DNA of 37,538 nt from an uncultured Clostridia bacterium (GTDB taxonomy: Bacteria > Bacillota > Clostridia > Christensenellales > UBA1242): positions 1 to 37,538 of the forward strand of contig CALVJJ010000010.1 in NCBI GenBank assembly GCA_944332185.1, in the 5' to 3' direction. Below the pieces are notes generated by a model. It was not told the origin of the DNA. It saw only the letters and a program-made list of their open reading frames with translations, and searched no databases. Positions 6,830 through 37,538 of this stretch are shown piece by piece. Position numbers and translations under genes: made by a program. Position 1 is the stretch's first letter. Every line of letters starts with the position of its first letter.

Positions 6830-7108
6830 ATGTCAATATTTGTCGATGAAGTATCCAAAATGATAGGCTTGCCACTAGAAGAAATTAGAAGTGAATACAA
6901 ATTAATGATGGTGGGTAGCAAAATGATAAGAATGAGCGGGTATCAAAAAATTATATCGTATCAAAGAGAAAAAGTAATCTTAAAAATAAAAAATGATACC
7001 TTACTTATTGAAGGAAAAGATTTGGTGATTCAAGAGATGGAACAAAATGAAATAGCGCTAGTGGGCCAAATAGATAAGATCTATTTGGGTAGTAGTGGAG
7101 AAAAGTAG
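6830..7108 (+). CDS. yqfC: Sporulation protein YqfC
   Basis: A 92-residue YabP/YqfC-family protein. In Bacillus subtilis yqfC and yqfD are sporulation genes under mother-cell control, and yqfD is needed for efficient spore formation. The ATG at 6830 has AAGGAG at good spacing; an in-frame ATG at 6812 lacks one. The stop is two bases from the yqfD start, so the two are translated together. The assignment rests on size, on the short beta-rich sequence with PLEEIRSEYKLMMVG, and on the yqfD partner. Confidence 0.8.
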   Translation: MSIFVDEVSKMIGLPLEEIRSEYKLMMVGSKMIRMSGYQKIISYQREKVILKIKNDTLLIEGKDLVIQEMEQNEIALVGQIDKIYLGSSGEK

Positions 7109-7109
7109 T

Positions 7110-17802: not shown

Positions 17803-18008
17803 GTTGCTTATTGGATCATAAAGGAAACATTTAACTTTAAAAATTATGAATAAATATACAAAATAAAATATAAATATACGTACTAAAAACATATATCATA
17901 AGGTATTTATCTATCAAAAACATCATAACTTTTCATTCATAGTCCACCCAGTATGTGAAATATCATGATATTCAACATGAATGCAAAATGATCAGCATAT
18001 ACTACAAT

Positions 18009-19025
18009 ATGAATAAAAGAATAGTGAGTGGGATTTGTTTACTAATAGGGACTACGATTGGTGCAGGATTTGCGACAGGAAAGGAAAATGTTGTTTTCTT
18101 TGCTCAATATGGTTATTTGTTTGTACCGAATTGTCTTATTTTTTGTTTATGTTTTGCTTTTATGATAGATTCTTTTATGTTGATGGGTAGGGAACAATAT
18201 GTTATATCTATCAAAGAAGGTAATACAAGAATAATTTCGTATGGTAGATGGATTGTTTTTTTAGTTTGTTGTACCATACTATCTGGTATGTTTAGTGGAG
18301 TAAAGGAAATACTAACTTTACTTTATCCATCACACAGTACAGTCTTATTTTTTATCTTCTTTTTAGGAATGATATGGATTTCTTTTCTTAACATGAGAGG
18401 ACTTAAGACAATCAATGAGATTTGTGTTCCTTGTATCATTATCTATGTTATTTGTATTGGATTGTTCTCACCATATTCTTTAAGGGGACAAGAAGGGAAG
18501 TATCAAGTTATATCAAGTATCCTTTCATCGCTTAACTATTCTTTTTTTAATGTTTTTGTTTCTGGTTTTATCATGATGTCTTACGCAAAAAATTTATCTA
18601 GAGAAGAGATTAAAAAGATTGCAATAGGGGGAAGTGTTGTGATAAGCATTTTACTTGCTATTGCAAGCATTGTGTTTTTGTATTGTGATCCTTCTTTAAC
18701 AAAAGAAAGTCTACCTTTTTTAAGTGTTGCATTCTCTATTTCAAAACTGTTAGGGTGGTTTGGGATTGTCATCATAATGATTGCCATCATAACTTCTTTA
18801 GTATCAAATAGTGTAATAGCTAAAAATATTTTGACTCAAAGAAGATGTCCAACTATCCTTGCTGTTCTTTTACCATTAGGTGTTAGTTGGGGATTGTCTT
18901 TTATTGGCTTTGAAAAAATTATAGGATATTGCTATCCTATAATTGGATTCATTAGTATGTTGATTTGTGCGTTATTTACTTTTTATACAATTATTAAAAA
19001 AGATAAAAATACACTCGTTAATTGA
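18009..19025 (+). CDS. YkvI-family integral membrane protein
   Basis: A polytopic membrane protein of 338 residues with about ten hydrophobic segments. The first segment carries GTTIGAGFATGKENVVFF, the signature of the YkvI family, which has an amino-acid-transporter-like (LeuT/APC) fold and no assigned substrate. The frame is open from 17955, but the hydrophobic first helix begins right after the Met at 18009, so that start is preferred. None of the candidate starts has a good ribosome binding site. It is a single gene. Confidence 0.75.
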   Translation: MNKRIVSGICLLIGTTIGAGFATGKENVVFFAQYGYLFVPNCLIFCLCFAFMIDSFMLMGREQYVISIKEGNTRIISYGRWIVFLVCCTILSGMFSGVKEILTLLYPSHSTVLFFIFFLGMIWISFLNMRGLKTINEICVPCIIIYVICIGLFSPYSLRGQEGKYQVISSILSSLNYSFFNVFVSGFIMMSYAKNLSREEIKKIAIGGSVVISILLAIASIVFLYCDPSLTKESLPFLSVAFSISKLLGWFGIVIIMIAIITSLVSNSVIAKNILTQRRCPTILAVLLPLGVSWGLSFIGFEKIIGYCYPIIGFISMLICALFTFYTIIKKDKNTLVN

Positions 19026-19132
19026 CATAAACCTATATAATAATGTCACAAAGTATAAATAATTACAATAATTATCAATAAATAATGACATAAAATATAT
19101 AAAATGCATAATTAAAAAATAATTGAAAAACA

Positions 19133-19972
19133 CTAATTTTTGTTATGTTTTTTACGAATATACTTTTCAATTAGAGACACCAGTAGGTACATTCCAGTTG
19201 CTAAAATACATAACACAACTGTATTTGCCATGACTAAACTTAGATCTAGGACTTGACTACCATAATTGATTTGGTATCCTAATCCGGCACGACTACATAA
19301 GTATTCACCCATAATGGTACCGACCCATGCCAAACCAACATTGATTTTTAAAACAGAAATAAATTCTGGAATTGCATAAGGCAAAATGAGTTTTTTTAGA
19401 ATTTGCCATTTACTGGCACCCATACTTTTTAAAAGTAAGATTTTGTTTGGTTCACAGGAAAGAAAAGAGTTTAACATACTGATAATGGTAATGACAATCA
19501 TGATCATGACAGCCATAACAATGATGGCTTGTGTTCCTACTCCTACCCAAACAATGATCATAGGACCAAGAGCAATTTTTGGTAAACTATTCAAGACAAC
19601 GATATATGGTTCTAATATCTTTCTAATGGTTTCATTCCACCACAAGATGATGGCAATAAAACTACCCAAAAATGTAGCTATTAAAAAAGCAATGATCGTC
19701 TCACTTAAGGAAATCCAAGAATGGTATAATAATGATCCATCTTTTAAAGAAGATGCTATGGTATGCCATATTTTACTTGGTGAGCTAGTAATGAAATTAT
19801 CAATAATATTGTATTTCGCCAAGATCTCCCATAGTAAAACGATAACAACAAATAGAATAATTTGGCTTGAAAAAATAAATATTTTTTTACGTGTTTGTTG
19901 ATGTTTATATTTTTGATATTCTTTAGAATACGTTGGTTTTTGTGTAAGTAAGTGTTGATTATGTTTCATCAT
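19133..19972 (-). CDS. ABC importer permease (nitrate/sulfonate/thiamine-precursor type)
   Basis: An inner-membrane permease of 279 residues with about six membrane helices. It carries the EAA-loop motif KSMGASKWQILKKLILPYAIP that docks on the ATPase. It belongs to the SsuC/TauC/ThiX-like branch. The ATG at 19972 overlaps the end of the ATPase gene by 14 bases, with AAGGA eight bases upstream inside that gene, so translation is coupled. The substrate is discussed under the binding protein. Confidence 0.88.
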   Translation of the reverse strand: MMKHNQHLLTQKPTYSKEYQKYKHQQTRKKIFIFSSQIILFVVIVLLWEILAKYNIIDNFITSSPSKIWHTIASSLKDGSLLYHSWISLSETIIAFLIATFLGSFIAIILWWNETIRKILEPYIVVLNSLPKIALGPMIIVWVGVGTQAIIVMAVMIMIVITIISMLNSFLSCEPNKILLLKSMGASKWQILKKLILPYAIPEFISVLKINVGLAWVGTIMGEYLCSRAGLGYQINYGSQVLDLSLVMANTVVLCILATGMYLLVSLIEKYIRKKHNKN

Positions 19973-20714
19973 ATTGTAAATCCTTCCATATTTGATCAAA
20001 ATACATTTGAAATTTCTTATCTTCTCTTCGTTGTAATGGAGTAAGATGAGAATCAAATTGCAACTGGTATTCTTTTTTTATCGTAGCAGGGCGTTTGGAT
20101 AACACAATGATTCTGTCTGATAAACTAATCGCTTCAGATATATCATGTGTTACCAAAATAGCTGCTTTTTTTTCTTTATTGAGAATATCTTTGACATCAT
20201 CACACACAGCCATTCTAGTCTGGTAATCTAGGGCAGAAAATGGTTCATCTAATAGCAAAACTTCTGGTTCTAATACCAGTGTTCTAATCAGAGCTACTCT
20301 TTGTCTCATACCTCCAGATAATTGCGAAGGGTGTTGTTTTTTAAATTCCTTCAATCCATATTTATCAAGTAATTGATTGGCAAATTTTACAGTGTTTTTA
20401 TTGTTCTTTTTCTGTATTTCGAGTCCAATCATAACATTTTTTATAATCGTTCTCCACTCAAATAATTCATCTTTTTGGAGCATATAACCGGTAAGTGTAT
20501 GTTTGTCTTTTTGATGAAATATGATAGTACCGACAGTTGGTTTGATAAGTTTTGCAATAATGGATAATATGGTTGTTTTCCCACAGCCACTTGGTCCAAC
20601 AATACTAATGAATTCCCCATCATGCACTGAAAAAGTAATGTCTTTTAGGGCTTGTGTTTCGCCGTTTTGACTAAAATACGTAAGACCAACATTTTCTAGT
20701 TTTAATACTTCCAT
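19959..20714 (-). CDS. ABC importer ATP-binding protein (SsuB/TauB-like)
   Basis: The 251-residue ATPase powers the importer. The Walker A is GPSGCGKTT, the Q-loop is MLQKDELFEW, the signature is LSGGMRQR, the Walker B is VLLLDEPFSALD and the switch is THD. The ATG at 20714 is six bases after GGAG. The in-frame TTG at 20726 overlaps that site and is rejected. A perfect 18-base inverted repeat lies immediately upstream of the ribosome binding site. Confidence 0.92.
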   Translation of the reverse strand: MEVLKLENVGLTYFSQNGETQALKDITFSVHDGEFISIVGPSGCGKTTILSIIAKLIKPTVGTIIFHQKDKHTLTGYMLQKDELFEWRTIIKNVMIGLEIQKKNNKNTVKFANQLLDKYGLKEFKKQHPSQLSGGMRQRVALIRTLVLEPEVLLLDEPFSALDYQTRMAVCDDVKDILNKEKKAAILVTHDISEAISLSDRIIVLSKRPATIKKEYQLQFDSHLTPLQRREDKKFQMYFDQIWKDLQYDET

Positions 20715-20725
20715 ATTGAACTCCA

Positions 20726-20743
20726 ATGAGCAGTATTGCTCAT
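20726..20743. repeat. Perfect inverted repeat before the ABC ATPase gene
   Basis: ATGAGCA (20726-20732), GTAT, TGCTCAT (20737-20743). It is directly adjacent to the GGAG of the ATPase gene (complement of 20721-20724). It could be a repressor operator or an RNA hairpin that modulates translation. It has no T run and is not a terminator. Confidence 0.5.
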
Positions 20744-20797
20744 TCCATTGTACGTAAAAAATAGAAATTTTGTTCCTTTAAAAATGTATAATTATAC

Positions 20798-20826
20798 AAA
20801 AAGGAAGTGTTTAGCAAAACACTTCC
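20798..20826 (-). terminator. Terminator or attenuator between binding protein and ATPase genes
   Basis: On the minus strand GGAAGTGTTT (complement of 20817-20826) pairs perfectly with AAACACTTCC (complement of 20803-20812) around TGCT. TTTTTG follows. It would end the transcript of the upstream lipoprotein gene, so the ATPase and permease need read-through or their own promoter. Confidence 0.8.
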
Positions 20827-20928
20827 ATTGTTATTTTTTATTATTTGTCAAATTTTTAAAAAATTGATTGTTGGTTGATCTTATACAAACATCAAGTATT
20901 GCTGATTAGGACTACTACATATCATGTT

Positions 20929-21927
20929 TTATACAAATTCTTTCATGACTTCTATAGCATAAGAATTGTCCACTACAGTTTGGAAAGCAACTTGTTTTGT
21001 GATTTGACCTGCATTTTCCATAATGGCTAATAATCTTTGGTAGGAGTCTTCTGTCATAACAGGGGTATCGTTCCAGGCATCAATTTGTTTATAACTTTCA
21101 ATGGCATATTTTATGGATTGAATATCTGTGCCAGGGAAAGAAGGTAGTAAACTTTGAGCAACTTCATCTAGATTGCCTGTGGTTAAGAATTGGTAGCCTT
21201 TTACGACTGCACGTAAGAATTTTTTAATTTGATCTTCATTCTTATCTAAGTAGGAACGATTTGCCATAAAGCAAGTGTATGGAACTTCTCCAGAATCTTG
21301 CCCAATGCTCGTAACGATATATCCTTTGCCTGCATTTTCTAATTCAGTGGCAGTAGGCTCAAATAGGGTGGTATAATCTCCTGTACCAGCTACGAATGCT
21401 GGGCCCATATTGTTAAAACTAATGTCATAATTGAGTGTAATATTTTGCCCATCATAATATCCTTTTTGATTTAGGACATATTCTAATGTCATAGCTGGCA
21501 ATCCACCTTTTCTACCGGCTATGATTTCGGTATTTTCTAGATTCGTCCAATCAAAATTGGTTTCTTGTGTTCGACCAAATAAAAAAGAACCATCGCGTTT
21601 TGTTAATTGACCAAAAATAATTGGCAAATCTTTTTTGTCTTGACTGGCTACATAAACACTGGTTTCTGGACCTAGCAGTGCAATATCTGCACTATTAGAT
21701 AATACAGCTGTCATACTTTTATCGCTTCCACCACCATTGGTTAATTCAATGGTATAGCCTTCTTCTTCAAAATATCCTTTATTCATCGCAACGTAAAATG
21801 GGGCATAAAAAATACTATGTGTAACTTCGTTGACACGAATGATGTTATCATCTTTTTGACAAGAGCAACCCATAAGAGATACAAAAGTAATGACGAGGAC
21901 TGCTAAAATAATAGATAGTTTCTTCAT
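20929..21927 (-). CDS. ABC importer substrate-binding lipoprotein (NMT1/THI5-like)
   Basis: A 332-residue exported lipoprotein. The signal peptide ends in the lipobox LMGC (Cys at about 22). The mature part follows the NMT1/THI5/SsuA-like pattern: VTHSIFYAPFYVAMNKGYF, then YTIELTNGGGSDK, and later ALLGPETSVYVA. This fold binds nitrate, sulfonates, taurine or thiamine pyrimidine precursors. No TPP riboswitch or other substrate-telling element is visible upstream, so the ligand is open. AAGGAGGT lies at good spacing before the ATG. A strong terminator separates it from its ATPase, allowing the binding protein to be made in excess. Confidence 0.88.
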   Translation of the reverse strand: MKKLSIILAVLVITFVSLMGCSCQKDDNIIRVNEVTHSIFYAPFYVAMNKGYFEEEGYTIELTNGGGSDKSMTAVLSNSADIALLGPETSVYVASQDKKDLPIIFGQLTKRDGSFLFGRTQETNFDWTNLENTEIIAGRKGGLPAMTLEYVLNQKGYYDGQNITLNYDISFNNMGPAFVAGTGDYTTLFEPTATELENAGKGYIVTSIGQDSGEVPYTCFMANRSYLDKNEDQIKKFLRAVVKGYQFLTTGNLDEVAQSLLPSFPGTDIQSIKYAIESYKQIDAWNDTPVMTEDSYQRLLAIMENAGQITKQVAFQTVVDNSYAIEVMKEFV

Positions 21928-22384: not shown

Positions 22385-22494
22385 ACGTTGTAGTGCGTAA
22401 AATTGGAAAAAATAGATGATAAAAATTCTTGTCAAAATCAAGATAATTTGATATGATTATCATAATTGATGAAATTTTAGACAAAGGAAAGAAT

Positions 22495-25113
22495 ATGAAC
22501 AAAACATTAGATCCAAAAAGTTATGAAAAAGATATTTATAGCATGTGGCTTGATAAAGGGTATTTTAAAGCCAATGTGAATAAAAACAAAAGTCCTTTTA
22601 CCATCATCATGCCACCACCAAATATTACGAGTAAGTTGCATATTGGTCATGCTTATACTACTACTTTGCAAGACACGATCATTAGGTATAAAAGAATGCA
22701 AGGATATGAAGCATTATTGTTGCCGGGGACTGATCATGCTGCTCTTGCGACAGAAGTGAAGGTTGTAGAAAAATTGAAGAAAGAAGGCAAGACCAAAGAA
22801 ATGTTGGGTAGGAAGGCTTTTCTTGAAGAAATGCAAAAATGGTATCATCAATATGGTAATTTGATTTTAGAACAATTCAAACAAATGGGTGTGAGTTGTG
22901 ACTGGGATAGACTAGCTTTTACCATGGACGAAGATAGACAAAAATCTGTACGTTATGCCTTCAAACATTTGTATGATAAAGGGTTAATTTATCAAGGGGA
23001 TCGTATTACCAACTGGTGTTGTTCTTGTCATACAGCACTATCCAATATTGAAGTTGAATATGAAGATCATCATGGGTATATTTATCATATAAGATATCCA
23101 TTCCAAGATGGAAGCGGATATATTGTAGTAGCAACCACGCGTCCAGAAACACTCATGGGAGATGTGGCAGTTGCAGTCAATCCTACTGATGAAAGATATA
23201 CTGGAATTGTGGGAAAAATGTTGGATTTGCCACTGGTACATAGGGCTATTCCAATCATCGCAGATGCTTATGTCGATAAGGAATTTGGGACAGGTATGGT
23301 GAAAATTACACCAGCACATGATCCAAATGATTATGAAGTAGGGAAAAGACATCATTTACCAATGATACAAACCATCAATTTAGATGGCACGATGAATGAA
23401 AATGCAGGTGCTGAGTATTGTGGTTTGGATCGATTTGCTTGTCGAGAAAAAGTTGTAGAAGACCTAAAAAACCTTGACTTGATCGAAAAAATAGAAAAAT
23501 ACGACAACAAGGTAGGACATTGTCAACGTTGTCATTCTGTGATCGAACCAATGCTTTCAAAACAATGGTACGTTAGAATGAAGGAATTGGCAAAACCAGC
23601 GATTGATGTTGTGAAAGATGGACAACTAAAATTTGTTCCAAAACGCTTTGAAAATTTGTACTTAAGTTGGATGGAAAATATTGATGATTGGTGCATCAGT
23701 AGACAACTTTGGTCAGGACATCGAATTCCTGTTTTTACTTGTGAAGATTGTGGACAAAAAATAGTAGAATTAGAAGATCCTACTGTATGTCCTCATTGTG
23801 GATCTACTCATTTAACACAAGACGAAGATGCTTTGGATACATGGTTTAGTTCTGCATTATGGCCATTTAGTACATTGGGTTGGCCAAATAAAACAGAAGA
23901 TTTGGCATATTTTTATCCTACTAGTTTGATGATCACAGCTTATGATATCATCTTTTTCTGGGTAGCAAGAATGATTTTTAGTGGCTTGGAATATATGGGA
24001 CAAATTCCTTTCAAAGAAGTGCTAATGCACGGGTTAGTACGTGACAATTTGGGCAGAAAAATGAGTAAATCTTTGGGAAACGGAATAGATCCAGTAGAGA
24101 TGATTGAAAAATATGGTACAGATGCATTACGTTATAGTTTAGTGATGGGAACGGCTATTGGAATGGACGCCAAATTTGGTATGGAAAAAATCGAAACCAG
24201 TAGGAATTTCCTAAATAAACTATGGAATGCAAGTAGATTTGTGTTAGAAAGCTTAAAACAAGCAGATTTTGTGCTAAAAGATATTCATACTATTGCTCTT
24301 GATGGATTAGATGAATATATTTTAACAGAACTTAGTCATACGATAGAAGAAGTGGAAAAAAGTTATGAAAAATATGATTTATCAGTCGTGGCTAGTTCTA
24401 TTTATGAATTTGTTTGGACAAAATTCTGTGACTGGTATATTGAAGGAATAAAGCCAAAATTATATAGCAATGATCCACAAATTAGGAATGATACCATCAA
24501 TATTTTAGTATATATTCTAGACAAAATCTTAAAACTATTGCATCCTATTTGTCCATTCGTAACGGAAGAAATTTACCAAAATTTACCAAATCACGGACCA
24601 TCTATCATGATAGATAGTTTCCCACATATTGACAAAGAATTGCTTTTCGTAGATCATAGAGATATTATAGAAGATCTTATGGAAGCCATTCGTGGAGTAA
24701 GAAATATTCGTGCAGAAATGAATGTTGCAGACAATATTAGAACCAATATCTATATTGAGATACTAGATGCAGAAGAGATTATCAATAGTGTATTGTACGC
24801 TATTCCAAAATTAGCGTTTGGCAAAGAAATTTGTAAAGGAAAATGTGACAATGCTAAAATGATTGTAGCAAAACACGTCAAACTATATTTGCCAGTAGAT
24901 GATATGGTAGATAAAGAAGCAGAGATACTAAGGCTAACTAAAGAACTAGAAAAAATTGATAAAGAGATCGCTAGGTCAAAATCTATGCTTAATAATGCAG
25001 GGTTTGTTTCCAAAGCTCCACAAAAATTAGTAGATGCTGAAAAAGAAAAATTACAACAACATGAAGAACATAGAAAGACCATTATTAGCAGTATTGATGC
25101 CATGAAAAAATAA
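22495..25113 (+). CDS. valS: Valyl-tRNA synthetase
   Basis: The 872-residue class I enzyme charges tRNA-Val. HIGH appears as LHIGHA (H49 to H52). The editing domain carries TTRPETLMGDVAVAV. The adenylation loop is KMSKS at 522-526. A zinc-ribbon-like pair, CEDC and CPHC, lies at about 415-440. The C-terminal coiled coil (EAEILRLTKELEKIDKEIAR) is typical of ValRS. The ATG at 22495 follows AAAGGAAAG; the earlier ATG at 22453 lacks a site and adds no conserved residues. A possible promoter (TTGTCA, 17 bases, TATGAT) lies about 40 bases upstream. No T-box leader fits in the about 110-base gap. Confidence 0.96.
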   Translation: MNKTLDPKSYEKDIYSMWLDKGYFKANVNKNKSPFTIIMPPPNITSKLHIGHAYTTTLQDTIIRYKRMQGYEALLLPGTDHAALATEVKVVEKLKKEGKTKEMLGRKAFLEEMQKWYHQYGNLILEQFKQMGVSCDWDRLAFTMDEDRQKSVRYAFKHLYDKGLIYQGDRITNWCCSCHTALSNIEVEYEDHHGYIYHIRYPFQDGSGYIVVATTRPETLMGDVAVAVNPTDERYTGIVGKMLDLPLVHRAIPIIADAYVDKEFGTGMVKITPAHDPNDYEVGKRHHLPMIQTINLDGTMNENAGAEYCGLDRFACREKVVEDLKNLDLIEKIEKYDNKVGHCQRCHSVIEPMLSKQWYVRMKELAKPAIDVVKDGQLKFVPKRFENLYLSWMENIDDWCISRQLWSGHRIPVFTCEDCGQKIVELEDPTVCPHCGSTHLTQDEDALDTWFSSALWPFSTLGWPNKTEDLAYFYPTSLMITAYDIIFFWVARMIFSGLEYMGQIPFKEVLMHGLVRDNLGRKMSKSLGNGIDPVEMIEKYGTDALRYSLVMGTAIGMDAKFGMEKIETSRNFLNKLWNASRFVLESLKQADFVLKDIHTIALDGLDEYILTELSHTIEEVEKSYEKYDLSVVASSIYEFVWTKFCDWYIEGIKPKLYSNDPQIRNDTINILVYILDKILKLLHPICPFVTEEIYQNLPNHGPSIMIDSFPHIDKELLFVDHRDIIEDLMEAIRGVRNIRAEMNVADNIRTNIYIEILDAEEIINSVLYAIPKLAFGKEICKGKCDNAKMIVAKHVKLYLPVDDMVDKEAEILRLTKELEKIDKEIARSKSMLNNAGFVSKAPQKLVDAEKEKLQQHEEHRKTIISSIDAMKK

Positions 25114-26052: not shown

Positions 26053-29000
26053 ATGAACATGGATTGGGAAGAAGAAAAAGCGAAAACGGACAAGATCATG
26101 AATAAAGAAGATGCTGATAGTTATACTGGTCAAAATCAGTCTTTTCATGATGAGATCCAAGAAAAAAGGATTTTGAAAGACAGTGATATGGTACATACCA
26201 AGGCAGAAGAAACATCTGCTTCTTTTGCTGTGAATACCGAGATCAAACTTCGCTATCGTGAAGATGGTTGTCCAATCAAACCAAAACACGTACGTCACCC
26301 TTATGCCTACCTAATTCGTAGCTTATTAGTCGGTATCATCATGATCTTGTCTGTCATTAGTGGTAATATGGTCTATTTGGCCAACCAATCTTCTTCTGAT
26401 GTGGAAGCTGCGTATACTTCAACATTAGCTTTGACTATTCATAATCAAACCTTGAATTCAGGTTATTTTTGGTTGGAAAGAGAACAGGTCGATTTAACAT
26501 CTACACCAAATTGGTACAGTTATAATTCTTATACTCTTTCTTATGTTTCAGGAAATAACTATTCACTTATCACATTTGGTGAGGAAAGATATGGTTATGA
26601 AGGGGATAGTAGTCTCAATGAATATGGTGCGCCTGGAACTTTTAGCCCAGCCGATGAAGGTGTATTTTTTGGAATTAACAGTGCTTATACTTACAATATA
26701 AACGGTAATTTTAGTTATATTAGCGATCAAGATTCTTTAGAAACAATCATTGTGTATTATGCTTTTCCCTCTTCAAGTTATGATAAATTTGTAGTTGAAG
26801 TGAATGGAAATAGTACACCTGTAGCCACATATGGTAATTTTAATATTTATGCTTATAGATTGTCAGAGTCTGATATTGTTAACAAAAGAGTAACTATTGA
26901 TGTCTACCAAACATATCATGTGGATTTTAACGCATATTTGAATGATCAGTATAGTGCAGGATCAGGAAATGATGATGCTACAGCACCTAATAATTTTAGA
27001 GTAGAGATTGATAGATATGGTGACGGGACATACGAATATAATTCTGGTATTGTTGCAGATTGGGCTTCCAGTCAAACAGGGTGTATAATGGTCCCTTATC
27101 AAGCAAGAGTAAGAGTTACGGTATATGTGGCTAAAGGTTGGATCTATAAAGGAATAGGACATTATGCTTCACAATGGGATCATAATATCATGTCTACTTC
27201 TATAAGCTATATTTTTACCATGGGTAATATATCAGCACTTAATTACTATGTGGATTTGTTTTTTGATATTACTACTTATGATTTAAAGGTAAGAGGGATA
27301 GAAGATAATGTTCAGCGAGATACATTATTGTATAATAAATTTACTGTAAAAATAGATGAAAACGGCGATGGAAATTTTGACCAAGTTTTTAACAATCTTA
27401 GTTCTTTCTCTTCTGCTAATCAAAATTATATGATTCCTTATGGTTCTTTTATTACGATCATATCTATACCTGCAACGGGTTGGAATTTTAAAGAATTAGC
27501 TCATGGACAAACTTTTGAAGATCCACCTACAAGTAATGACACTACCTATACATTTCAGCTGACCAATATAACTGAACAAGATTTTTACATGTATTATGTA
27601 AATTTATCGTTTACAAGAAAAACATATAGATTGCAGTTAAGTGCAACGATCAATGGTGGGTATTCTGATATACCAGCAAGCACTAGTCTAGGTATCAATG
27701 TAGATCAAGATTTAGATGGTACATATGAATATTCTACAACTTTGACTTCTGTGCAGACTTATTCTTATATTTTTAAATATGGTTCTAAAATAAGTATTAG
27801 CAGTTATGTGAATTCTTATTGGGAAAACACAGGGTATGGATTTGATACTGTTAAAACAACAGATAAAGATGTGACTGATTCATGGTGTACATTTTCTCTT
27901 TCTGATAATAATTATTATGTGACAGTACATTACGAATCTTATCAAATAACCTTTAATACTGTTGCATGGTTACGATCATTGACAAGTTCTACCTATACAA
28001 AACAATCTACATTATTAACGAATGACCTTTCGATATCAATAGATGAAAATATAGATGGTATATATGAAAAAACATACAGCAGTGTAGCTAGTTTAGCTAA
28101 TTATAGAATCGTTACCTACTCTGGTGTGCCTATGAAGATTACTGTAAAAAGAGGAGATGGATACGAAATCAATGCTATATTATACAGTACATCTAGCACT
28201 AGTTATACTTCAGGTACCTCAATTGCTAGTGATGGAATGTTTAATACTCCAAGTGTTTCATCGGCGAAAACATATTATTTACATGCTTTATTCTATTACA
28301 AAACGTACAATCTCAATATTGCTACCTTGACCAATGGAAGTGCTTCCAATGCTAGTAGTAATAGGTTTAGGATCGAGATTGATGTTGCCAATGATGGTAC
28401 TTATGAGTCTTCTTATTATAGTCAAACAAGTTGGTTGTCTAGTAGTACAACACTTAAGATAAGATACAATACCAAAATTAGAATTACACCTACCGTGGCT
28501 ACTGGGTGGACGTATGCTGGTGTTGGTGTAGGGACAACTGTAGCATCTTCAGAAACTGTAAGTTCCACTGCTAATCCATATACATATAGTATTCCAAATG
28601 GTAACAATGGAACGACGTATTACTTTAAAGTAGTCTTTACACTGAATTCTTACCAATTAGATCTAAAAGGTGTCATAGATAATGTGACAAGCAATTCCAT
28701 TGGAGTAGGAAATGGTGTAGATATATCTATCAATGGATACATGGTAGAAGAAGATACAAGTATGTTTTCTCAAACAGTACCTTATGGTTCTACCATTACG
28801 ATCTCCATAGCTAACCTTAGTACCAATTATTGGTATCAAGGAATGAAAAGATCTACTACATGGATTGATGGACCTTTATCCCAAGCAAATGGTCAGGCAG
28901 ATCAAGTACAATCTAGAACCATTAGTTTAACCATGCCAGCCAGTAATACTGTATTATCTATGTATTTGTTCGACAATTTATATACTGTTTTTGTGACAAA

Positions 29001-32000
29001 AGGTGATCATGTGGTTAGTGCTTCAGATGGTGGACAATATCCATATGGTACAACAATTACAGTAAATGCAGCAGCAGAAAAAGGGTATTGGTTATACTTA
29101 AATGATTCTGAATTGGAAGGGATCATTGTGGGAGATTATAATCAAAACACAAAACAATGGGAGTTTTCAGAATCCTTCATTGTTACAAGTGATCTATATT
29201 TTGATTTTACAGCTGGCTCATCTGCAATTACATTGTCTTGGTCTACTGAACTCGAAGGGTATTCAACCACAGATATGCCAACGACTTTACCGAATGGACT
29301 GGAATATCATATTTATGTATACGATAGTACAGGGGTTGCTAATCCAGATTATGCAGTTTCTTCTATATCTGGATCTATCACACATTATGCTTCCTTTGGG
29401 AATGGATACATTAGACTATCAGGGTATTCTTCCTATTGGTATTCTCTCTATGAAAGTACAGGTCAAACTTATGAATCATCTTATACCTATAGTGGTTCAA
29501 ATGTAACAATCACTACATCTACTAGCTCTGATCCAGAGGAAAAAGGAGTGTCCTTTAGTTCTTCAAAATATACTTCAGGGACAATAGGTTTTAGAGTAAC
29601 CTTAAAGCAAAAAACATGGACTCGCTATGCAGCAAGTCTAGCTACAACTTCGCTCACTGAGACTGCTACTGATACTTATACGATTAGTAGTGTCGATGAC
29701 TGGGCAAGATTCGCCTATATGGCAGCCAATGGAAATAATTTTTCAGGAAAAACCATCAATCTTGCTACTGATCTCAATCTAGATGGCAAATATTCACAAC
29801 CAGTCGGGAAAAATTTAACCAATGGTAATGGAATTAGTGGTTTTTATGGAATGTTTAATGGGCAAGGACATACCATCTCAAATGTGAAAATTTTATGTGC
29901 ACAATCTTATGGGGGTTATGATATAGGTCTATTTGCTGCCGTTGGTAATACAGTTCAAAATTTATATTTAAAAAATATTGATTATTTATCAAGCACTTAT
30001 TATGTAGGAGGAATAACGGCTTATTTAATGAGTGGTAGTGCTACTATTACTGATTGCGCTGTGTTAAGTGGCACTCTTAAAGGTGGTGTAGTTGGTGGTA
30101 TTGTTGGAAATAATAATGGAAAATTACTAAGAAGTTTTGTTTCTGAGGATGTAATAATAGAAGGAGTAGGAACTAGCTCTTATGTTGGTGGAATTGCAGG
30201 AGTTGCTACAGCATATATAAAATATTGTTATTCTTTTGCTTCTGTAACAGGAAATACCAGTGGTGGTATTGTAGGACGTATATCATCAACGTTAGAAGCT
30301 TGTTACGCCATTACCAATGCAAAATATGCAATTTCAGGTATGAAGAGTTCTAGTAATCCAAAATACAGTTATGGCTTAATTCCTAATTCTAATACAACAG
30401 GTTATACACAATTAACAGATGCATCACAATTAAGAGAGTGGTCTATTGTGGACGATTTAATAAGGTATGGTAAATTTGGCTATGTATCTGTGAATGCCGA
30501 TGGTATCTCTACCACCACAGACAATGCATGGAATAGCAGTACAGGACAATACAACAACTATGGATATCCAATTCTGACAGGTTTTATGGGCAGAGAGACC
30601 CATACTGTCAAAGTCAATTTTTACCTAAATAATGCAAGTAATAGGAATAACACTGTCAATGGATATACGATCAATACAATTTCTGCTGATAGATCTTATA
30701 CTGTGAATACGGGGAATGTAGCCAATTTCCCACTCAATGTTACACAAGCTACCAATTGGGTGTCATACAATGGACTCATTAAATCTTGGACGATCAATGA
30801 TGTTGAGCAAGATACTGCTATTTCATCAATCTCAGAAGCAATCCATGTGACAGAAGATACAGTGATTAAAATACATCTTGTATCATATGGTGTGAAAGTG
30901 GTACAAGCTACATATTATACTTCTGTTACCATGAAGGGTACAGGGACTACATATTCTACTTCAGCAAGTATCGGTTTTGGATACATGGGAAGTTATGATG
31001 TTGCTTTGAGAGTGACGAATACGAAGAATGTCATTGGGAATATTACTCAAGGTGAAACAATTATTTATGATTACAATACAAAGTCTACCATCGGTGGTGT
31101 CAGCAATGCCACTGTAAGTCTCACGGGTAATACAACAGCAGATGTAGACTCTATACTATCTATTAGCAACGTAACAGGGGCATCGACCTTTACCATTAAG
31201 CCATATTATGCTGTCACGATTGATAATACGAATGTAGGGAATACGGTATCAGGTACAAAATCTTTTGTTGTTACATACAATGGAGATCAAACAGCCACAA
31301 TAGGCAATGAAACAAAAACGATTTATGCAGACCTAGATCAAGATATACAGTTTACAAAAGATGCTTGCGATACGACCAAAGAATGGTTGTTCCTACGAGC
31401 TATTAAAGTAGTAGACTATACCCACGCAACAGGGAATGAAAGATACCTATATGGAAGTAGTACGAAGAATCCAACAGGATCTACTAGTGATTATGCTGCT
31501 ATCAGTGTGACAGATACTTCATTATCTAGGTATCAATATACGAGTGATAGTGGTGTATTGTATACAATGGTATATGTCAATGCTTTGTATACACTAACGA
31601 TCCAGTATGATACCGATCAGTATGATTGCGATACGAATAATGATGGTATAGCTGATGGTAAAAATTATACGGTAACCATTAAGCAAACAGTAGATGGAGT
31701 ATCAACAACAGAAGAAAAAACAACAGAAACTGGAGAACCTTTACTGTTCTCTGTTAGATCAAGAGCTTCTATTCAATATACAATACGCATCAATTCGACT
31801 GAAGCTTATGCAATTTATTGTGATGGGAAGAGTTCATATGCTGCTTCTACTACAAGTCTACAAAGTTATTCTATAACAGTAGGTCAGGCCGATGTGACCA
31901 AAACATTCACAGTATTACGACTGGTGACTTTGAATTTGACTACAGAAATTGGTGGTGGATATGGTACAACTAGTGGAGCAGATCCTTCTGCATCTGTAAG

Positions 32001-35000
32001 CAGTGTATCTACTAAGACATCTAATAATGTCACGACAGGATATAACACAACTACCTTTACCATAGATGGTAAAAAATATTATAGTGTCGGACAGGTATTG
32101 ACCATTGCTGCTCAAAAAGAAAATTATACCATAGAATCATGGTTGTTAAATTATACAGGAGTCAATGGTGCCAACAATACTTATGAACTAGTGTTATCTT
32201 GTCCAAACACCAATAAGGGTACAACTGCTAATGTACACGTCACATTCCGTATTCCTACTATGACATTGTTGGTCGGTAAAAATCGTACTGATGTTAATAT
32301 GCCAAGATTACTTGTTAGTCAATTGGCAGATCTAGCATTAGAAAGAAATACCACGTATCTAGATCCATACAAACATACTTTTAGTACCAATGAATTGACT
32401 TTATCTTTAGATGGTAATACGTGGACAATAAAATATATCAATTATTTGCAAGAACAACAGGGGACATCTGCCAAAGCAACACGACAAATGATTGATTATA
32501 TCAAATACAACGGGTATTATATTCTCAAACTCAACAAAGACAATAGTGGTAATGCTATTACGAGTACAGGTAGTGCATATAGTTATTATTCTTATACGGT
32601 AACTGTCGGGGAAAGATATGCAATCTTTAGATCAGATAATCCAGATGGCCAAGAGACCATAAATGGCAAAGTTAATCGTTATGGAGTAGAATCTTATATT
32701 ATTACAATTGGTAGCAATACTTCGTATGCGGAAGATTTTGAAGAAATAACGGGGACCAATTTGGGTAGTAATACATGGGGATTCGTAAGAAAAGCTAGTC
32801 CAAGTGCAGACTGGACAGGACATGCAATAGGGGGAGCAACAGTCTATGCGGCTATTACCTATTTGCCATACTATAATTACACGAACAGCATTGTATTAGA
32901 TATGACGAATTCTTCTCAATTATTTGCTTCAAAAACAAGTGAATATGGGAATGTTAGCAATCTAATTTATAGTGTTGGTACATATAATCAGACCACATCT
33001 TCGACATTATTAGATCTTATTAAGAATGATCATATTTCCTTTGAAGTTGTTACTGGAGACAAGGTAACTTTAGTTGGTAATTATATTAAAATACAATATA
33101 CCGTGCCAGAAGGAGTCAACCTAGTTTCATGGCAAGGCTTCGGGAATGTAAACAATACGCAAGTCGTTCCATATAGTTTTACATTACCAACTAACGATGG
33201 TATGTATGGTTATAGTTTGACATTAGCAGATGGAAGTACAAAATTTGATTATGTCATGCAAAAGAATGATAATACGTATACCATGTATTATCTCATGATA
33301 GATTTGTCACAAATAAAAGAAGCTTATACGGGAATATCTGGATTTGCAGATGCACAAAATTATCAATTCACATTAAAGATTCAAGAAAAACCATATAATT
33401 TAGTTGTGAATTACAGAATCAATGGGAATATTAAAATTGCTGATTTTGGAACAATCAAAATATATGAATATTATCTTGATGAAGGCAAAGAAGTTTATGA
33501 TATTACGAATGCTGATTATACTATTGATAATACAATAGTAAATGGTGAAATTACCATTCCTACCTATGTGTTTGGAAAATTCTATATAGTACTAGAAACC
33601 AATGATCCAAGATATACGTATGGATCAGTTTCAGTTGGTAGCAATTTGGTATCTAGTTCAGTGACGACAGGAACGGATAGTTGGAAAGGAACGATTGCGA
33701 CAAACAATAAAAATACAACCAGCAGTCAAACCATTAGTTTTGCTATCAAAGAAAGTTGGACACTAAGCACTAACGACATTACATTTACAACACAGAATGT
33801 AACAAATGGTAGAACGACATTTGCTACACCAAAATTGACAATAAGTAGTACGAGTGCTATCCAAAATACTTCTACTAGTATTCAAGTATCTCCTAATACA
33901 TCTACAGCGGGAAGTTGGAATGTAAGTGGAGAGTATTATCAAAATAGTTGTAATACAGTGGTTAATAATGTTTGGATTCAAAATGGTGCAAGTATTACGT
34001 TATCTATTCCAGTAATAGATGGTTATACTACTACACTGAGAGTTAAACAAAATGGTATATGGAATGAATATGTTAGTGTTACAAGTAAAACTATTGTAGT
34101 CACATCTGATCTTGAAATTGAGATTATATCTATAGAAAAAGCATATACGTTATCCAAAACATTGGAATTCTATAATAATGGTATTGCAGTAGCAACAACC
34201 AATCAAAATAGTAATTTTGTAATAACAGTGACCAGTAATACAGTTACTGATAATACTACAAAAATTGGACATTTTGGTGCAATTACCAATGCGTATATTA
34301 CGATGCCAAAGGCACAAAGCTATGATGCAACCAGCAATCCAACAGGAAGTGCCTACTACTATATTGTAGATGCTATGTATATGAATACCACGAGTGTAAA
34401 TATTGGTAACAAAGTAAGTGATGGCAATAATTACAGAGTGTCTATGAGCACTTTGCCATCATCTTACAAAACCAATATGAATTTTAAAGTAAGACTGAAT
34501 GCTATTTGGCAAGTACCAGAAGTAGGCAATCTTAGTAATATCATCACCAACACTACAACGAATGAATCAGATATTGCTGCAGACAATAGAGTAGGTGGAG
34601 AAGTCAATATTAGTGTCAATACATCAGCAGTGAACACTCATAATATGTATCCAAGTGGGGCAACAATTACGTATGAATCTACGGCTAATATAGGGTATAA
34701 TTTTACCAATCTAAAAATAGGTAATAACACAATTAACAATACAACATATTCAGTTACATTATCAGGTCCATTAGGTAGTGCTCAGGGTGCCTTTACAGAA
34801 CAATCATATACATTAACAGTTTATGATTATGCAAGTAATGCAACGGTAAAAGGTGGGACATTAAGAGTTACAAATACAACTAGTAAAAATACAGCACAAG
34901 TATTAGGTACAAAAAGCACATTAGTCATGGGATATTTTAGTACGGCAACAGTCACTGCCACAGAAAGTGATCCAGAAAGGTATTATTATAATGGAGTGAC

Positions 35001-37538
35001 AGTAGTACGTGGAACCACGACGAATACCTGTAACCAAAATCCAATACCTATTGGTAGTGCCAGTGTGGTAGATAGCAGTATCATAGTAGATAGCAATTTT
35101 AATGCAGATACTACCATGACAGCCAACTGGCTTACCACAGGAAAAATTAGTGCCAATACGGTAAAAGTGTATTGTGCTTCTTGTGGAGAATATCATACAA
35201 TTAGTAGTATTACGATTGGAAAAGGTAGCCAAGATCAAGCTGTTGGTACAATAGGTAAGGAAGATATCTATATTTATGGCAATACAGCACATTTTACTAT
35301 CACGAAAACTGATAGCAACTATGTATATCTTGGCTGGGCAAAACTTGGAGAAGAATCTCAATTGCTCACACAAAATACAGGAACGTATCCTACTGTCAGT
35401 AGTACAGAACTCAAAGTAATTTCTGGAGATAGTACAGTAGCAGAGTATGTATATGTTGTGCAAGAATACCATGATGTATCTATCAATGATGAAGATACAG
35501 AAGGACTTCCAAGTGGAGTAAATGCAAGTTCTTATGTAAGCGTATCCAGTGCAAGAGTTCTTTGTGGGACATCAATTACTGTCAAAGCAAATCCTTATAC
35601 AGATAGTTTAGGAAGAAAATACTATCCATATAAGATCGCACGAAAAATCTCTAGTAATTGTAGTTGTTCATGTCCAGTACAACCAGATAATGATCCTAAA
35701 CCAATAGACATATCTGGTCAAAATGGATATACAGGAAACTTTGAAATTACAGGGGATACAGAGTTTGTTGTGTACTACAAACTAGCGTATGTATTAACTG
35801 CTAATTATGGGGTAGTCAACGAAATAGACAATAAAGTGTATACAGATTTTGCAACGATTACGATGAATCCAGCAAGTGGATCAGTCAATCCAAATAGCAC
35901 GATTACATATACAGCCAATTTGAAAAATGGAGCATCTTACCAATTCATGGGTTGGGCAAAATACTATGGAACGAGTCTTCCAGTAGGTTCTGCCTTGACA
36001 CTTGTAGGAAAATATCTAACTTCTGGTAATGGAGTGACAGTCAATAATAATATTCTTTCGATTACGGCAACAGAAAGCAATTTGTATAATGGAAGCAATA
36101 GAATATACTACATTGCTTTGTATCGTAAGATAGTGAATATTACGATGGAGACCACCAATTATAATACAAACACAAAAGCACTTAGTTCTGTAGATGGATT
36201 AGCAACGTATACAGTAAGTGTCGTAAGAAATAATGCATCTTATGATTGGAGTTCTAAAGTTACAACCGGAACGAATAGTAACGGCAAATATGTTGTGATT
36301 AGTCTATTGGAAGGAGACAAGGTAACCATTAGTAGCTCTATTGTAAGTAGTACCAAAGCACGTTTTACAAGAAGAGTACTAAGTATTGCTTCACAAGTAG
36401 TGCAAAACATAGACAATACTTACAATAATGGACCTACACCAACGACAAGTATTGTAGATGTTATTGATGGAACAAGTTATACTTTCAATGGGAATATGGT
36501 TTTTGAAACCAATCAAATCCAATTATTTACTCTTAATTTTGATAAAACTGTCAACATCAATTACGTGACAGAAGATATTACAAAAACAGGTGCAACAATT
36601 GAGAATGCCACTGTGAGTGATGCAGAAGTTTGGATCATAGATGAGAATAATTACTACGATCAAGGATCGCTTGCCAACACAAGAATTGTTGTAGAAGATG
36701 GATTTATCTTAGATAGTGTTGTTTTTAAAGATAATACTGGTAATACAATGCTTTCTCAAAATGTAAATGATGTGTATACTATAAGTCTTTCTGCACAAAT
36801 ACAACAATGTACTGTTACAGTAACAGAAGAACAATACACAGTATTGATCCAAAATAACCCAGCAGGTACAGTGACTTGTGAATCTGAAAATAGTAAATAT
36901 AGTTTTACGAACGATCAAATTATTCTTGGAGCATTCTCAACAGCAACATTTAAAGCAACTCCAAAAGCAAATTATCGATTCGTTACTTGGACAGTCAATG
37001 GAGATTGTACATATAGCCAACCATTATTTAATTCTACACTTACGATTAGTGACTGCCAATCTGATATTTCTATACAAATAACTTATCAGACGACCAATAA
37101 TGTTGAAATTGGTAATAGCATGTATCAAACTGATGTGAACAGTGGGGCTAGTTTACCTAATGATGTAAAATTCACAACACCAAGTACTACACAAAAAAAT
37201 CTTGTGGTAGATTCTGGCACAGCAATTACTATTACTGTACCAACAGTAAGCAATAGTTTAAGATTGGCTGGATATCAATTACAAATCGTGGTAGGTTCTG
37301 ATACCTATACAGAAAAAGTATTATTGAACACGCAAGTTGCAAGTACAGAAGCAACAAGCAGTCAAACATTTACCAAACATAATACGACCTTTACCATGAC
37401 AGGTAATACCATTTCCTTTGAAACATTTGGTCAAAATGGTTATACTATCCAAGCTATTTATCAAGAATATGTCAGTGTCAACTTTAAAGTGAACAACAGT
37501 CAATACTTGACAGGTGTAAGTGCAACATATAATGGTAG
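26053..37538 (+). CDS. Giant surface-exposed repeat protein (partial, over 3,800 residues)
   Basis: One frame stays open for 3,828 codons and runs off the right edge. TAA precedes the first ATG. AGTAGGT is three bases from it and nine from an ATG two codons later, so the second may be the true start. Residues 1-85 are hydrophilic and charged. A membrane segment lies at about 86-110 (YLIRSLLVGIIMILSVISGN), with a possible cleavage site near DVEAAY. The rest is Asn/Thr/Ser/Tyr-rich beta repeats. Six units of about 115 residues with DxDxDG-like loops span about 285-975. A GLUG-type section lies at about 1217-1440. Many divergent InlB-B-like repeats follow, clearest at about 3595-3680. A cysteine cluster CSCSC is at about 3203-3207. 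It is probably an adhesin or cell-surface fibre. Its C-terminal anchor is outside the window. Confidence 0.85.
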   Translation, partial: MNMDWEEEKAKTDKIMNKEDADSYTGQNQSFHDEIQEKRILKDSDMVHTKAEETSASFAVNTEIKLRYREDGCPIKPKHVRHPYAYLIRSLLVGIIMILSVISGNMVYLANQSSSDVEAAYTSTLALTIHNQTLNSGYFWLEREQVDLTSTPNWYSYNSYTLSYVSGNNYSLITFGEERYGYEGDSSLNEYGAPGTFSPADEGVFFGINSAYTYNINGNFSYISDQDSLETIIVYYAFPSSSYDKFVVEVNGNSTPVATYGNFNIYAYRLSESDIVNKRVTIDVYQTYHVDFNAYLNDQYSAGSGNDDATAPNNFRVEIDRYGDGTYEYNSGIVADWASSQTGCIMVPYQARVRVTVYVAKGWIYKGIGHYASQWDHNIMSTSISYIFTMGNISALNYYVDLFFDITTYDLKVRGIEDNVQRDTLLYNKFTVKIDENGDGNFDQVFNNLSSFSSANQNYMIPYGSFITIISIPATGWNFKELAHGQTFEDPPTSNDTTYTFQLTNITEQDFYMYYVNLSFTRKTYRLQLSATINGGYSDIPASTSLGINVDQDLDGTYEYSTTLTSVQTYSYIFKYGSKISISSYVNSYWENTGYGFDTVKTTDKDVTDSWCTFSLSDNNYYVTVHYESYQITFNTVAWLRSLTSSTYTKQSTLLTNDLSISIDENIDGIYEKTYSSVASLANYRIVTYSGVPMKITVKRGDGYEINAILYSTSSTSYTSGTSIASDGMFNTPSVSSAKTYYLHALFYYKTYNLNIATLTNGSASNASSNRFRIEIDVANDGTYESSYYSQTSWLSSSTTLKIRYNTKIRITPTVATGWTYAGVGVGTTVASSETVSSTANPYTYSIPNGNNGTTYYFKVVFTLNSYQLDLKGVIDNVTSNSIGVGNGVDISINGYMVEEDTSMFSQTVPYGSTITISIANLSTNYWYQGMKRSTTWIDGPLSQANGQADQVQSRTISLTMPASNTVLSMYLFDNLYTVFVTKGDHVVSASDGGQYPYGTTITVNAAAEKGYWLYLNDSELEGIIVGDYNQNTKQWEFSESFIVTSDLYFDFTAGSSAITLSWSTELEGYSTTDMPTTLPNGLEYHIYVYDSTGVANPDYAVSSISGSITHYASFGNGYIRLSGYSSYWYSLYESTGQTYESSYTYSGSNVTITTSTSSDPEEKGVSFSSSKYTSGTIGFRVTLKQKTWTRYAASLATTSLTETATDTYTISSVDDWARFAYMAANGNNFSGKTINLATDLNLDGKYSQPVGKNLTNGNGISGFYGMFNGQGHTISNVKILCAQSYGGYDIGLFAAVGNTVQNLYLKNIDYLSSTYYVGGITAYLMSGSATITDCAVLSGTLKGGVVGGIVGNNNGKLLRSFVSEDVIIEGVGTSSYVGGIAGVATAYIKYCYSFASVTGNTSGGIVGRISSTLEACYAITNAKYAISGMKSSSNPKYSYGLIPNSNTTGYTQLTDASQLREWSIVDDLIRYGKFGYVSVNADGISTTTDNAWNSSTGQYNNYGYPILTGFMGRETHTVKVNFYLNNASNRNNTVNGYTINTISADRSYTVNTGNVANFPLNVTQATNWVSYNGLIKSWTINDVEQDTAISSISEAIHVTEDTVIKIHLVSYGVKVVQATYYTSVTMKGTGTTYSTSASIGFGYMGSYDVALRVTNTKNVIGNITQGETIIYDYNTKSTIGGVSNATVSLTGNTTADVDSILSISNVTGASTFTIKPYYAVTIDNTNVGNTVSGTKSFVVTYNGDQTATIGNETKTIYADLDQDIQFTKDACDTTKEWLFLRAIKVVDYTHATGNERYLYGSSTKNPTGSTSDYAAISVTDTSLSRYQYTSDSGVLYTMVYVNALYTLTIQYDTDQYDCDTNNDGIADGKNYTVTIKQTVDGVSTTEEKTTETGEPLLFSVRSRASIQYTIRINSTEAYAIYCDGKSSYAASTTSLQSYSITVGQADVTKTFTVLRLVTLNLTTEIGGGYGTTSGADPSASVSSVSTKTSNNVTTGYNTTTFTIDGKKYYSVGQVLTIAAQKENYTIESWLLNYTGVNGANNTYELVLSCPNTNKGTTANVHVTFRIPTMTLLVGKNRTDVNMPRLLVSQLADLALERNTTYLDPYKHTFSTNELTLSLDGNTWTIKYINYLQEQQGTSAKATRQMIDYIKYNGYYILKLNKDNSGNAITSTGSAYSYYSYTVTVGERYAIFRSDNPDGQETINGKVNRYGVESYIITIGSNTSYAEDFEEITGTNLGSNTWGFVRKASPSADWTGHAIGGATVYAAITYLPYYNYTNSIVLDMTNSSQLFASKTSEYGNVSNLIYSVGTYNQTTSSTLLDLIKNDHISFEVVTGDKVTLVGNYIKIQYTVPEGVNLVSWQGFGNVNNTQVVPYSFTLPTNDGMYGYSLTLADGSTKFDYVMQKNDNTYTMYYLMIDLSQIKEAYTGISGFADAQNYQFTLKIQEKPYNLVVNYRINGNIKIADFGTIKIYEYYLDEGKEVYDITNADYTIDNTIVNGEITIPTYVFGKFYIVLETNDPRYTYGSVSVGSNLVSSSVTTGTDSWKGTIATNNKNTTSSQTISFAIKESWTLSTNDITFTTQNVTNGRTTFATPKLTISSTSAIQNTSTSIQVSPNTSTAGSWNVSGEYYQNSCNTVVNNVWIQNGASITLSIPVIDGYTTTLRVKQNGIWNEYVSVTSKTIVVTSDLEIEIISIEKAYTLSKTLEFYNNGIAVATTNQNSNFVITVTSNTVTDNTTKIGHFGAITNAYITMPKAQSYDATSNPTGSAYYYIVDAMYMNTTSVNIGNKVSDGNNYRVSMSTLPSSYKTNMNFKVRLNAIWQVPEVGNLSNIITNTTTNESDIAADNRVGGEVNISVNTSAVNTHNMYPSGATITYESTANIGYNFTNLKIGNNTINNTTYSVTLSGPLGSAQGAFTEQSYTLTVYDYASNATVKGGTLRVTNTTSKNTAQVLGTKSTLVMGYFSTATVTATESDPERYYYNGVTVVRGTTTNTCNQNPIPIGSASVVDSSIIVDSNFNADTTMTANWLTTGKISANTVKVYCASCGEYHTISSITIGKGSQDQAVGTIGKEDIYIYGNTAHFTITKTDSNYVYLGWAKLGEESQLLTQNTGTYPTVSSTELKVISGDSTVAEYVYVVQEYHDVSINDEDTEGLPSGVNASSYVSVSSARVLCGTSITVKANPYTDSLGRKYYPYKIARKISSNCSCSCPVQPDNDPKPIDISGQNGYTGNFEITGDTEFVVYYKLAYVLTANYGVVNEIDNKVYTDFATITMNPASGSVNPNSTITYTANLKNGASYQFMGWAKYYGTSLPVGSALTLVGKYLTSGNGVTVNNNILSITATESNLYNGSNRIYYIALYRKIVNITMETTNYNTNTKALSSVDGLATYTVSVVRNNASYDWSSKVTTGTNSNGKYVVISLLEGDKVTISSSIVSSTKARFTRRVLSIASQVVQNIDNTYNNGPTPTTSIVDVIDGTSYTFNGNMVFETNQIQLFTLNFDKTVNINYVTEDITKTGATIENATVSDAEVWIIDENNYYDQGSLANTRIVVEDGFILDSVVFKDNTGNTMLSQNVNDVYTISLSAQIQQCTVTVTEEQYTVLIQNNPAGTVTCESENSKYSFTNDQIILGAFSTATFKATPKANYRFVTWTVNGDCTYSQPLFNSTLTISDCQSDISIQITYQTTNNVEIGNSMYQTDVNSGASLPNDVKFTTPSTTQKNLVVDSGTAITITVPTVSNSLRLAGYQLQIVVGSDTYTEKVLLNTQVASTEATSSQTFTKHNTTFTMTGNTISFETFGQNGYTIQAIYQEYVSVNFKVNNSQYLTGVSATYNG
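26905..28977 (+). repeat. Six tandem protein repeats (about 107-122 residues) with Ca-loop-like motifs
   Basis: Units start at 26905, 27271, 27619, 27940, 28300 and 28645. Each opens with a short TYxL/V-like strand. A strand ending in a loop then follows: DRYGDGTYE, DENGDGNFD, DQDLDGTYE, DENIDGIYE, DVANDGTYE, and a degenerate form in unit 6. Next comes a (V/I)PYG(S/T)xITI-like strand and usually a GW/GY turn. The loop fits DxDxDGxx(D/E), a pattern of calcium-binding loops. A shorter seventh piece continues to about 29230. DNA identity between units is low, so the repeats are old. Confidence 0.75.
29701..30370 (+). repeat. GLUG-type repeat section inside the giant protein
   Basis: The section starts with WARFAYMAANGNNFSGKTIN and LATDLNLDG, the usual lead-in of GLUG-repeat surface proteins, followed by FNGQGHTISNV. 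It then has repeated glycine-rich cores: YYVGGITAY, GGVVGGIVGNNNG, YVGGIAGVA and TSGGIVGRI. Such repeats form beta-solenoids in bacterial surface proteins. It breaks the run of InlB-like repeats and may form a rod segment. Confidence 0.75.

Follow-up and report, generated by a model that had tools for sequence, protein, structure and literature searches.

A previously unnamed family of giant, predicted surface proteins with constrained ends and a fast-changing body in Clostridia with genomes of about 1 Mb

What kind of protein is begun by an open frame that occupies the last 11.5 kb of a clostridial contig, and how far would it extend beyond the contig? The window analysed here (37,538 bases) is the entire contig C10 of an uncultured Clostridia genome, G000, which comprises 962,355 bases in 20 contigs and is 97% complete. 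Its forward strand holds 3,828 codons at 26053-37536 with no stop, and the frame exits at the window end. The parts of this region are listed below.

22453..25113, + strand: valS, the upstream neighbour of the giant
26053..37536, + strand: giant gene, N-terminal 3,828 codons, truncated by the contig end
26053..26277, + strand: N-terminal extension, residues 1-75, ahead of the conserved leader; start codon uncertain
26278..26409, + strand: 'HPY' export leader, with H82-P83-Y84, core ~88-109 and V-E-A 117-119; predicted signal peptidase I site
26908..28974, + strand: six tandem ~115-aa repeats, residues 286-974, from profile and pairwise comparison
26908-27270, 27271-27618, 27619-27936, 27937-28299, 28300-28644 and 28645-28974, + strand: the six repeat units
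28981..29088, + strand: Flg_new_2 / InlB-B-like stretch, residues 977-1012, sub-threshold (20.4 of 23.6 bits)
29581..30450, + strand: GLUG-like segment, residues 1177-1466; of the body, chiefly this part aligns to relatives
30451..37536, + strand: Thr/Ser/Asn/Tyr-rich body, with no recognised domain but a sub-threshold Flg_new_2 match at residues 3595-3674

By codon usage the frame is a real gene. Its synonymous codon usage follows that of the housekeeping ORFs of the window (r = 0.985), and the five remaining frames across it carry 167-397 stops apiece. A preliminary description of this DNA had reported a single frame of more than 3,800 codons, open over some 11.5 kb and running past the window, with a composition rich in Asn, Thr, Ser and Tyr, and these observations hold. 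Thr (13.2%), Ser (10.8%), Asn (8.6%) and Tyr (7.8%) are each raised relative to neighbouring proteins (4.7, 4.9, 4.3 and 4.6%, respectively) and together make up 40% of residues. As the window is the whole contig, continuation past it means that the frame is cut by the assembly. All other contig ends of G000 were read inward and outward without a 3' continuation being found; the long open frames at these ends proved to be SecA, SMC and other ordinary genes. Because its own 3' part is missing from the assembly, we infer the full length and C-terminus of the protein in this species from sister proteins.

The leader provides access to such sisters. Its 49 residues (71-119) comprise a basic stretch, the H82-P83-Y84 motif, a hydrophobic core and V-E-A, and as a query they best matched the N-termini of frames of 9,946, 9,840, 3,845 and 4,524 aa in sister genera. 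A profile built from five leaders was then searched in 309 genomes of the bacterial family, where it gave matches below E 1e-10 in 15 genomes from seven genera, one match per genome. The G000 leader, which shows the [KR]xHPYxxL pattern and hydrophobic core that mark the family at the N-terminus of a giant frame, is included in the profile and scored E 3.6e-18, while the single-sequence search recovered sisters independently of it. No additional strong match was found in 396 genomes drawn evenly across the order, so the leader looks specific to the bacterial family. A weak profile match (L240, G370:C1:16738-16848; E 5e-4) lies in a 211-aa frame from another family of the order. Seven sister proteins are complete, at 9,584-10,737 aa counted from the first in-frame start, and all shorter leader-positive frames terminate at contig ends. 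Judged by these sisters, the whole G000 protein very probably has about 10,000 residues, of which the first 3,828, or some 38%, are encoded in the window.

Complete members also share their C-terminal ~35 residues (consensus LGSFTLDTITRDxTINITINKPLEYWLHxSASN, dominated by genus g14), a tail ending in W-[LI]-[HN]. A tail profile run over the same 309 genomes gave 13 below E 1e-4, 12 of them leader-positive, and the tail is found in 12 of the 15 leader-positive genomes. The remaining tail-positive genome, G034, yielded no leader, and contig ends break its giant into fragments. G277 and G278 carry the tail in frames of 9,208 and 9,509 aa, respectively, while their N-terminal pieces (~640 and ~730 aa) are on a different contig. 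This near one-to-one pairing speaks for leader and tail belonging to the same protein, one at each end, and against the tail being a general sorting tag. The tail profile found no copy in the G000 assembly, most simply because the 3' part was not assembled.

The first 3,000 residues, compared with 58 relatives, matched only through the GLUG segment, and whole-protein searches of viral_contigs and genome_contigs returned no relatives. Bacterial surface proteins of very large size form a recognised class (PMC11573180), and on sequence grounds the HPY-leader giants are best described as a previously unnamed family of this known kind. The giant is ordinary in kind but notable in its size, conservation pattern and setting; what is new is this family, the constancy of both its ends and the size it reaches in a ~1-Mb genome.

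The composition of the protein from repeats, as proposed in the preliminary description, was borne out to differing degrees. Six units of ~115 aa occupy residues 286-974 and are real: a repeat profile scores them at domain E 1e-28 to 1e-50, as against a best E of ~0.01 for composition-preserving shuffles, and, while this profile was built from the six units themselves, pairwise E-values independent of it reach 3e-15. Units 1-5 contain an ID-x3-DG loop. The strict DxDxDG motif occurs five times in the giant ORF, three of them within the array, in agreement with the DxDxDG repeats described earlier. Past residue 978 the profile identified no further clear unit, though one stretch (2827-2907) scored E 0.0013. 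AlphaFold2 runs on the six units yielded, for unit 5, an all-beta domain (pLDDT 78, pTM 0.74) that in structure comparison came closest to CnaB-type domains of pilins and adhesins. The best of these, the T13 pilin (rmsd 3.4 over 100 residues), has a Z of 8.3, a level common for unrelated models; a CnaB-like fold is suggested by the model at this strength. PDB sequence searches produced no convincing match to a solved structure.

The GLUG repeats and InlB-B-like repeats of the earlier account correspond to Pfam matches below cut-off. For GLUG (PF07581), the best score in the giant ORF is 13.8 bits against a cut-off of 20.5, but the segment is homologous to GLUG-like segments of relatives (E 2e-20). 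An AlphaFold2 model of this segment, computed without an alignment, was unusable (pLDDT 35). Two stretches match PF18998 (InlB-B / Flg_new_2), both below the Pfam cut-off (20.4 and 19.7 bits in chunks of the ORF, cut-off 23.6), and a search of the G000 genome gave two matches with a best E of 3.6e-5. PF18998 is present in 46 of 59 relatives, often inside giant frames. In carrying sub-threshold stretches of both, the giant resembles the InlB B-repeat/Flg_new_2 and GLUG proteins of Clostridia, which do not share its HPY leader and tail. Its likeness to sortase-dependent CnaB adhesins and pilins (T13 pilin, SdrD, SpaC) consists of a predicted signal peptide followed by a predicted stalk of tandem beta-domains. 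Unlike these, it is several times longer, has no CnaB match in sequence and no sortase in its genome, and its complete sisters lack a C-terminal LPXTG.

How such a chain leaves the cell, and whether it stays attached at its N-terminus, depends on the reading of the leader. The N-terminus of the ORF contains one hydrophobic segment, residues 91-109. About 81 residues precede HPY in the G000 ORF, whereas most sisters begin 9-13 residues before it, which leaves the true start codon in G000 uncertain. A [V/T]-x-A site, ending 38-48 residues from the H, is found in 14 of the 14 leaders compared; shuffled controls had a mean of 3.7 and a maximum of 9 of 14 in 2,000 trials, a test that overstates independence since the leader sequences are related. 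We take this conservation as support, rather than proof, for cleavage. The preliminary description had proposed a membrane-anchored N-terminus. The hydrophobic segment is indeed present, but because the leader carries the conserved [V/T]-x-A site, a cleaved Sec leader appears likelier than a permanent anchor. A signal-anchored stalk, with the leader uncleaved, residues 91-109 held in the membrane in type II orientation and the C-terminus at the far tip, would suit the single strong hydrophobic segment, the complete sisters without another anchor, the ~81 residues ahead of the motif and a candidate cleavage site unusually distant (~10-20 residues) behind the core. It would leave the retention of [V/T]-x-A in every leader, amid a variable surrounding linker, harder to understand, and we consider it rather unlikely.

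At the other end, neither LPXTG, SLH nor another terminal anchor, which the preliminary description had named as prospective support, is present in complete sisters. These lack both a C-terminal helix and an LPXTG close to the terminus, and their last 300 residues are net acidic. SLH domains gave no match in the window part or in the full-length sister from G013, which had no match to Pfam at E 0.01 or better. Sortase (PF04203) is absent from G000 and present in one of 35 family genomes sampled. Other giants of the same bacterial family (G033, G030, G028, G019, G004) are exported, several with GLUG-like parts, and end in a transmembrane helix and basic tail, as the HPY giants do not; G000 itself encodes a 1,189-aa protein with such an ending. 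Since this device is used elsewhere in the family and in G000, its absence from the HPY giants is a real difference. Exported giants of 3,000-6,830 aa with a C-terminal transmembrane helix and basic tail were noted in several other genera (L081-L090, L092, L094). Of the earlier proposal of a giant surface repeat protein, what is supported is a giant exported repeat protein, probably ~2.5 times longer than the part seen; the anchor is not.

Our preferred interpretation, to which we attach moderate confidence, is that the gene encodes a single-copy, Sec-secreted fibre of ~10,000 residues in reduced-genome gut Clostridia, most likely an adhesin or matrix fibre. The conserved basic 'KPNFRVKHPY' leader would direct the chain to the Sec machinery, with cleavage by signal peptidase I after [V/T]-x-A. 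Once mature, the acidic chain of beta-domains (CnaB-like, InlB-B-like and GLUG-like) would form an extracellular fibre, possibly some hundreds of nanometres in length, with the 35-residue C-terminal tail either capping it or holding it to the surface without sortase. Such a fibre may then be directed at partner cells or the surfaces of the gut, with rapid evolution of its exposed body. The open frame, the family and the length of its complete members, both constant ends, the fast middle and the lack of sortase are read directly from sequence; for the G000 giant we infer cleavage, fibre shape, non-covalent retention and adhesion.

A released protein, diffusible or part of a matrix (e.g. a phage decoy or biofilm polymer) and not a cell-bound adhesin, is also suggested by predicted cleavage and by the absence of sortase and of a C-terminal anchor. 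A precedent exists in Apilactobacillus kunkeei, a bacterium with a small genome whose proteins Giant1-5 (3,000-8,000 aa) have a Sec/SPI signal peptide, a repeated interior, a conserved C-terminal segment and no transmembrane domains, and occur in both cell-free supernatant and cell lysate (PMC12863079). Against release, tail identity within genus g14 is 63-74%, compared with ~30% for the body, suggesting a specific task, for instance retention or assembly; we regard release without attachment as unlikely. The A. kunkeei giants are nevertheless the closest described analogue. Shared features are the small genome, a leader (here with [V/T]-x-A, seen in sequence only), repeats and, judged by sisters, a conserved C-terminal segment and the lack of a C-terminal membrane helix, and the match in how the two might work is good. 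Membership of the same family fails on domain content and charge: the sister from G013 has no DUF5776 or SH3b-like match, and the sister C-termini are net negative instead of positive. Moreover, the interior of the HPY giant is Thr/Ser/Asn/Tyr-rich and looks all-beta where modelled, while Giant1-3 are mostly alpha-helical, and HPY giants occur as one gene per genome as opposed to a five-gene cluster.

The contrast between constrained ends and a fast-changing body is visible within and between genera. Six members from genus g14 are colinear across 5.5-8.4 kaa at 28-32% identity; the downstream ABC ATPase is 76-91% identical among them and its permease 38-47%. As this neighbouring permease also evolves fast, some of the divergence may be what membrane and exported proteins generally show in these bacteria. 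Between genera, colinearity shrinks to short stretches, except in two comparisons: G008 with the C-terminal contig in G024 (2,365 columns, 29%, E 3e-163) and G008 with G034 (2,323 columns, 24%, E 5e-52). The G000 body, beyond the leader and GLUG segment, does not align to most sisters. Very low body identity inside one genus may stem from diversifying selection, or it could reflect a weakly constrained giant, in which export is kept and the body mostly drifts with no single conserved binding function. Codon changes between G217 and G279 (13 non-synonymous and 6 synonymous, too few for a test) lean the same way. We find this improbable given that length is held at 9.6-10.7 kaa in the seven complete members, with all frames intact and long stretches colinear. 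That the open frame is itself an artefact of assembly or gene calling, as the contig end falling inside it might suggest, is refuted by its housekeeping-like codon usage and by intact giant frames in seven other assemblies, which also answer the frameshift or assembly error foreseen in the preliminary description. The N-termini from G217 (L224, G217:C152) and G279 (L227, G279:C30) are 98% identical though the genomes are filed in different genera; one of the two genomes probably contains a misbinned contig, the alternative being a very recent transfer.

Bacteria with genomes of ~1 Mb thus devote a gene of ~30 kb, or close to 3% of the genome, to a single secreted protein, which points to a function on which their lifestyle depends, probably cell contact. 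The GTDB family UBA1242 (Christensenellales) has been characterised as likely made up of obligate symbionts or parasites in which many biosynthetic pathways are missing (PMC12306168), and the words 'giant', 'adhesin' and 'surface' are absent from the text of that study. By valS, most named relatives are uncultured Clostridia; one is filed under Christensenella, and several come from rumen. These relatives, the genome size and a sporulation-type gene in the window are consistent with a tentative placement of G000 in UBA1242. Tentatively, the ~10,000-residue protein might be the main contact fibre of a putatively partner-dependent lineage of gut Clostridia, with constant ends, a fast body and sortase-free retention through its tail. 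If so, its body would be among the fastest-evolving genes, and surface retention would proceed through a new C-terminal tail. The leader and tail profiles offer handles for recovering the complete gene from fragmented assemblies, and the constant ends permit tests of giant-chain export and of sortase-free retention.

The genomic setting is shared with some sisters. Together with valS, the block at 17955-21927 marks a neighbourhood that also holds giants in G008 and, farther off, G024. The giant lies downstream of valS in the window, upstream of the ykvI-like/ABC/SBP/valS block in G008, and between rnc and smc in G024 (L093, G024:C10; L104/L115, G024:C12), that is, in the same region and a different slot. 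A fixed slot between valS and smc was rejected, as no giant is present there in five sister genomes whose valS-smc interval is unbroken.

Several other elements were noted. A sporulation-type gene, YqfD-like by reading, lies at 7095-8231 of the window. At 134-2108 on the minus strand is a likely diversity-generating retroelement, with a reverse transcriptase (GNQTSQ motif; RVT_1 E 5.5e-20) and a bAvd-like protein whose match falls below the cut-off (E 5.7e-5); a template-like stretch lies at ~1340-1530. The giant was considered as its target and rejected: a search of the window for an A-tolerant match to the template region turned up nothing convincing, and the genome contains the template core a single time. 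Since the G000 assembly yielded no variable-region copy, the target may lie in an unassembled stretch. Adjoining the retroelement (~2395-2435) is a fragment resembling a tRNA 3' end, gtccagagttcgagtctctgatggaccacca, which was not called by ARAGORN and could be the attachment-site remnant of an integrated element. Finally, G000 encodes a second giant (G000:C4:52509-71792; L117, L033), a complete lipoprotein of 6,427 aa with the lipobox LAGC and GLUG-like parts, situated downstream of a 786-aa frame resembling pheT.
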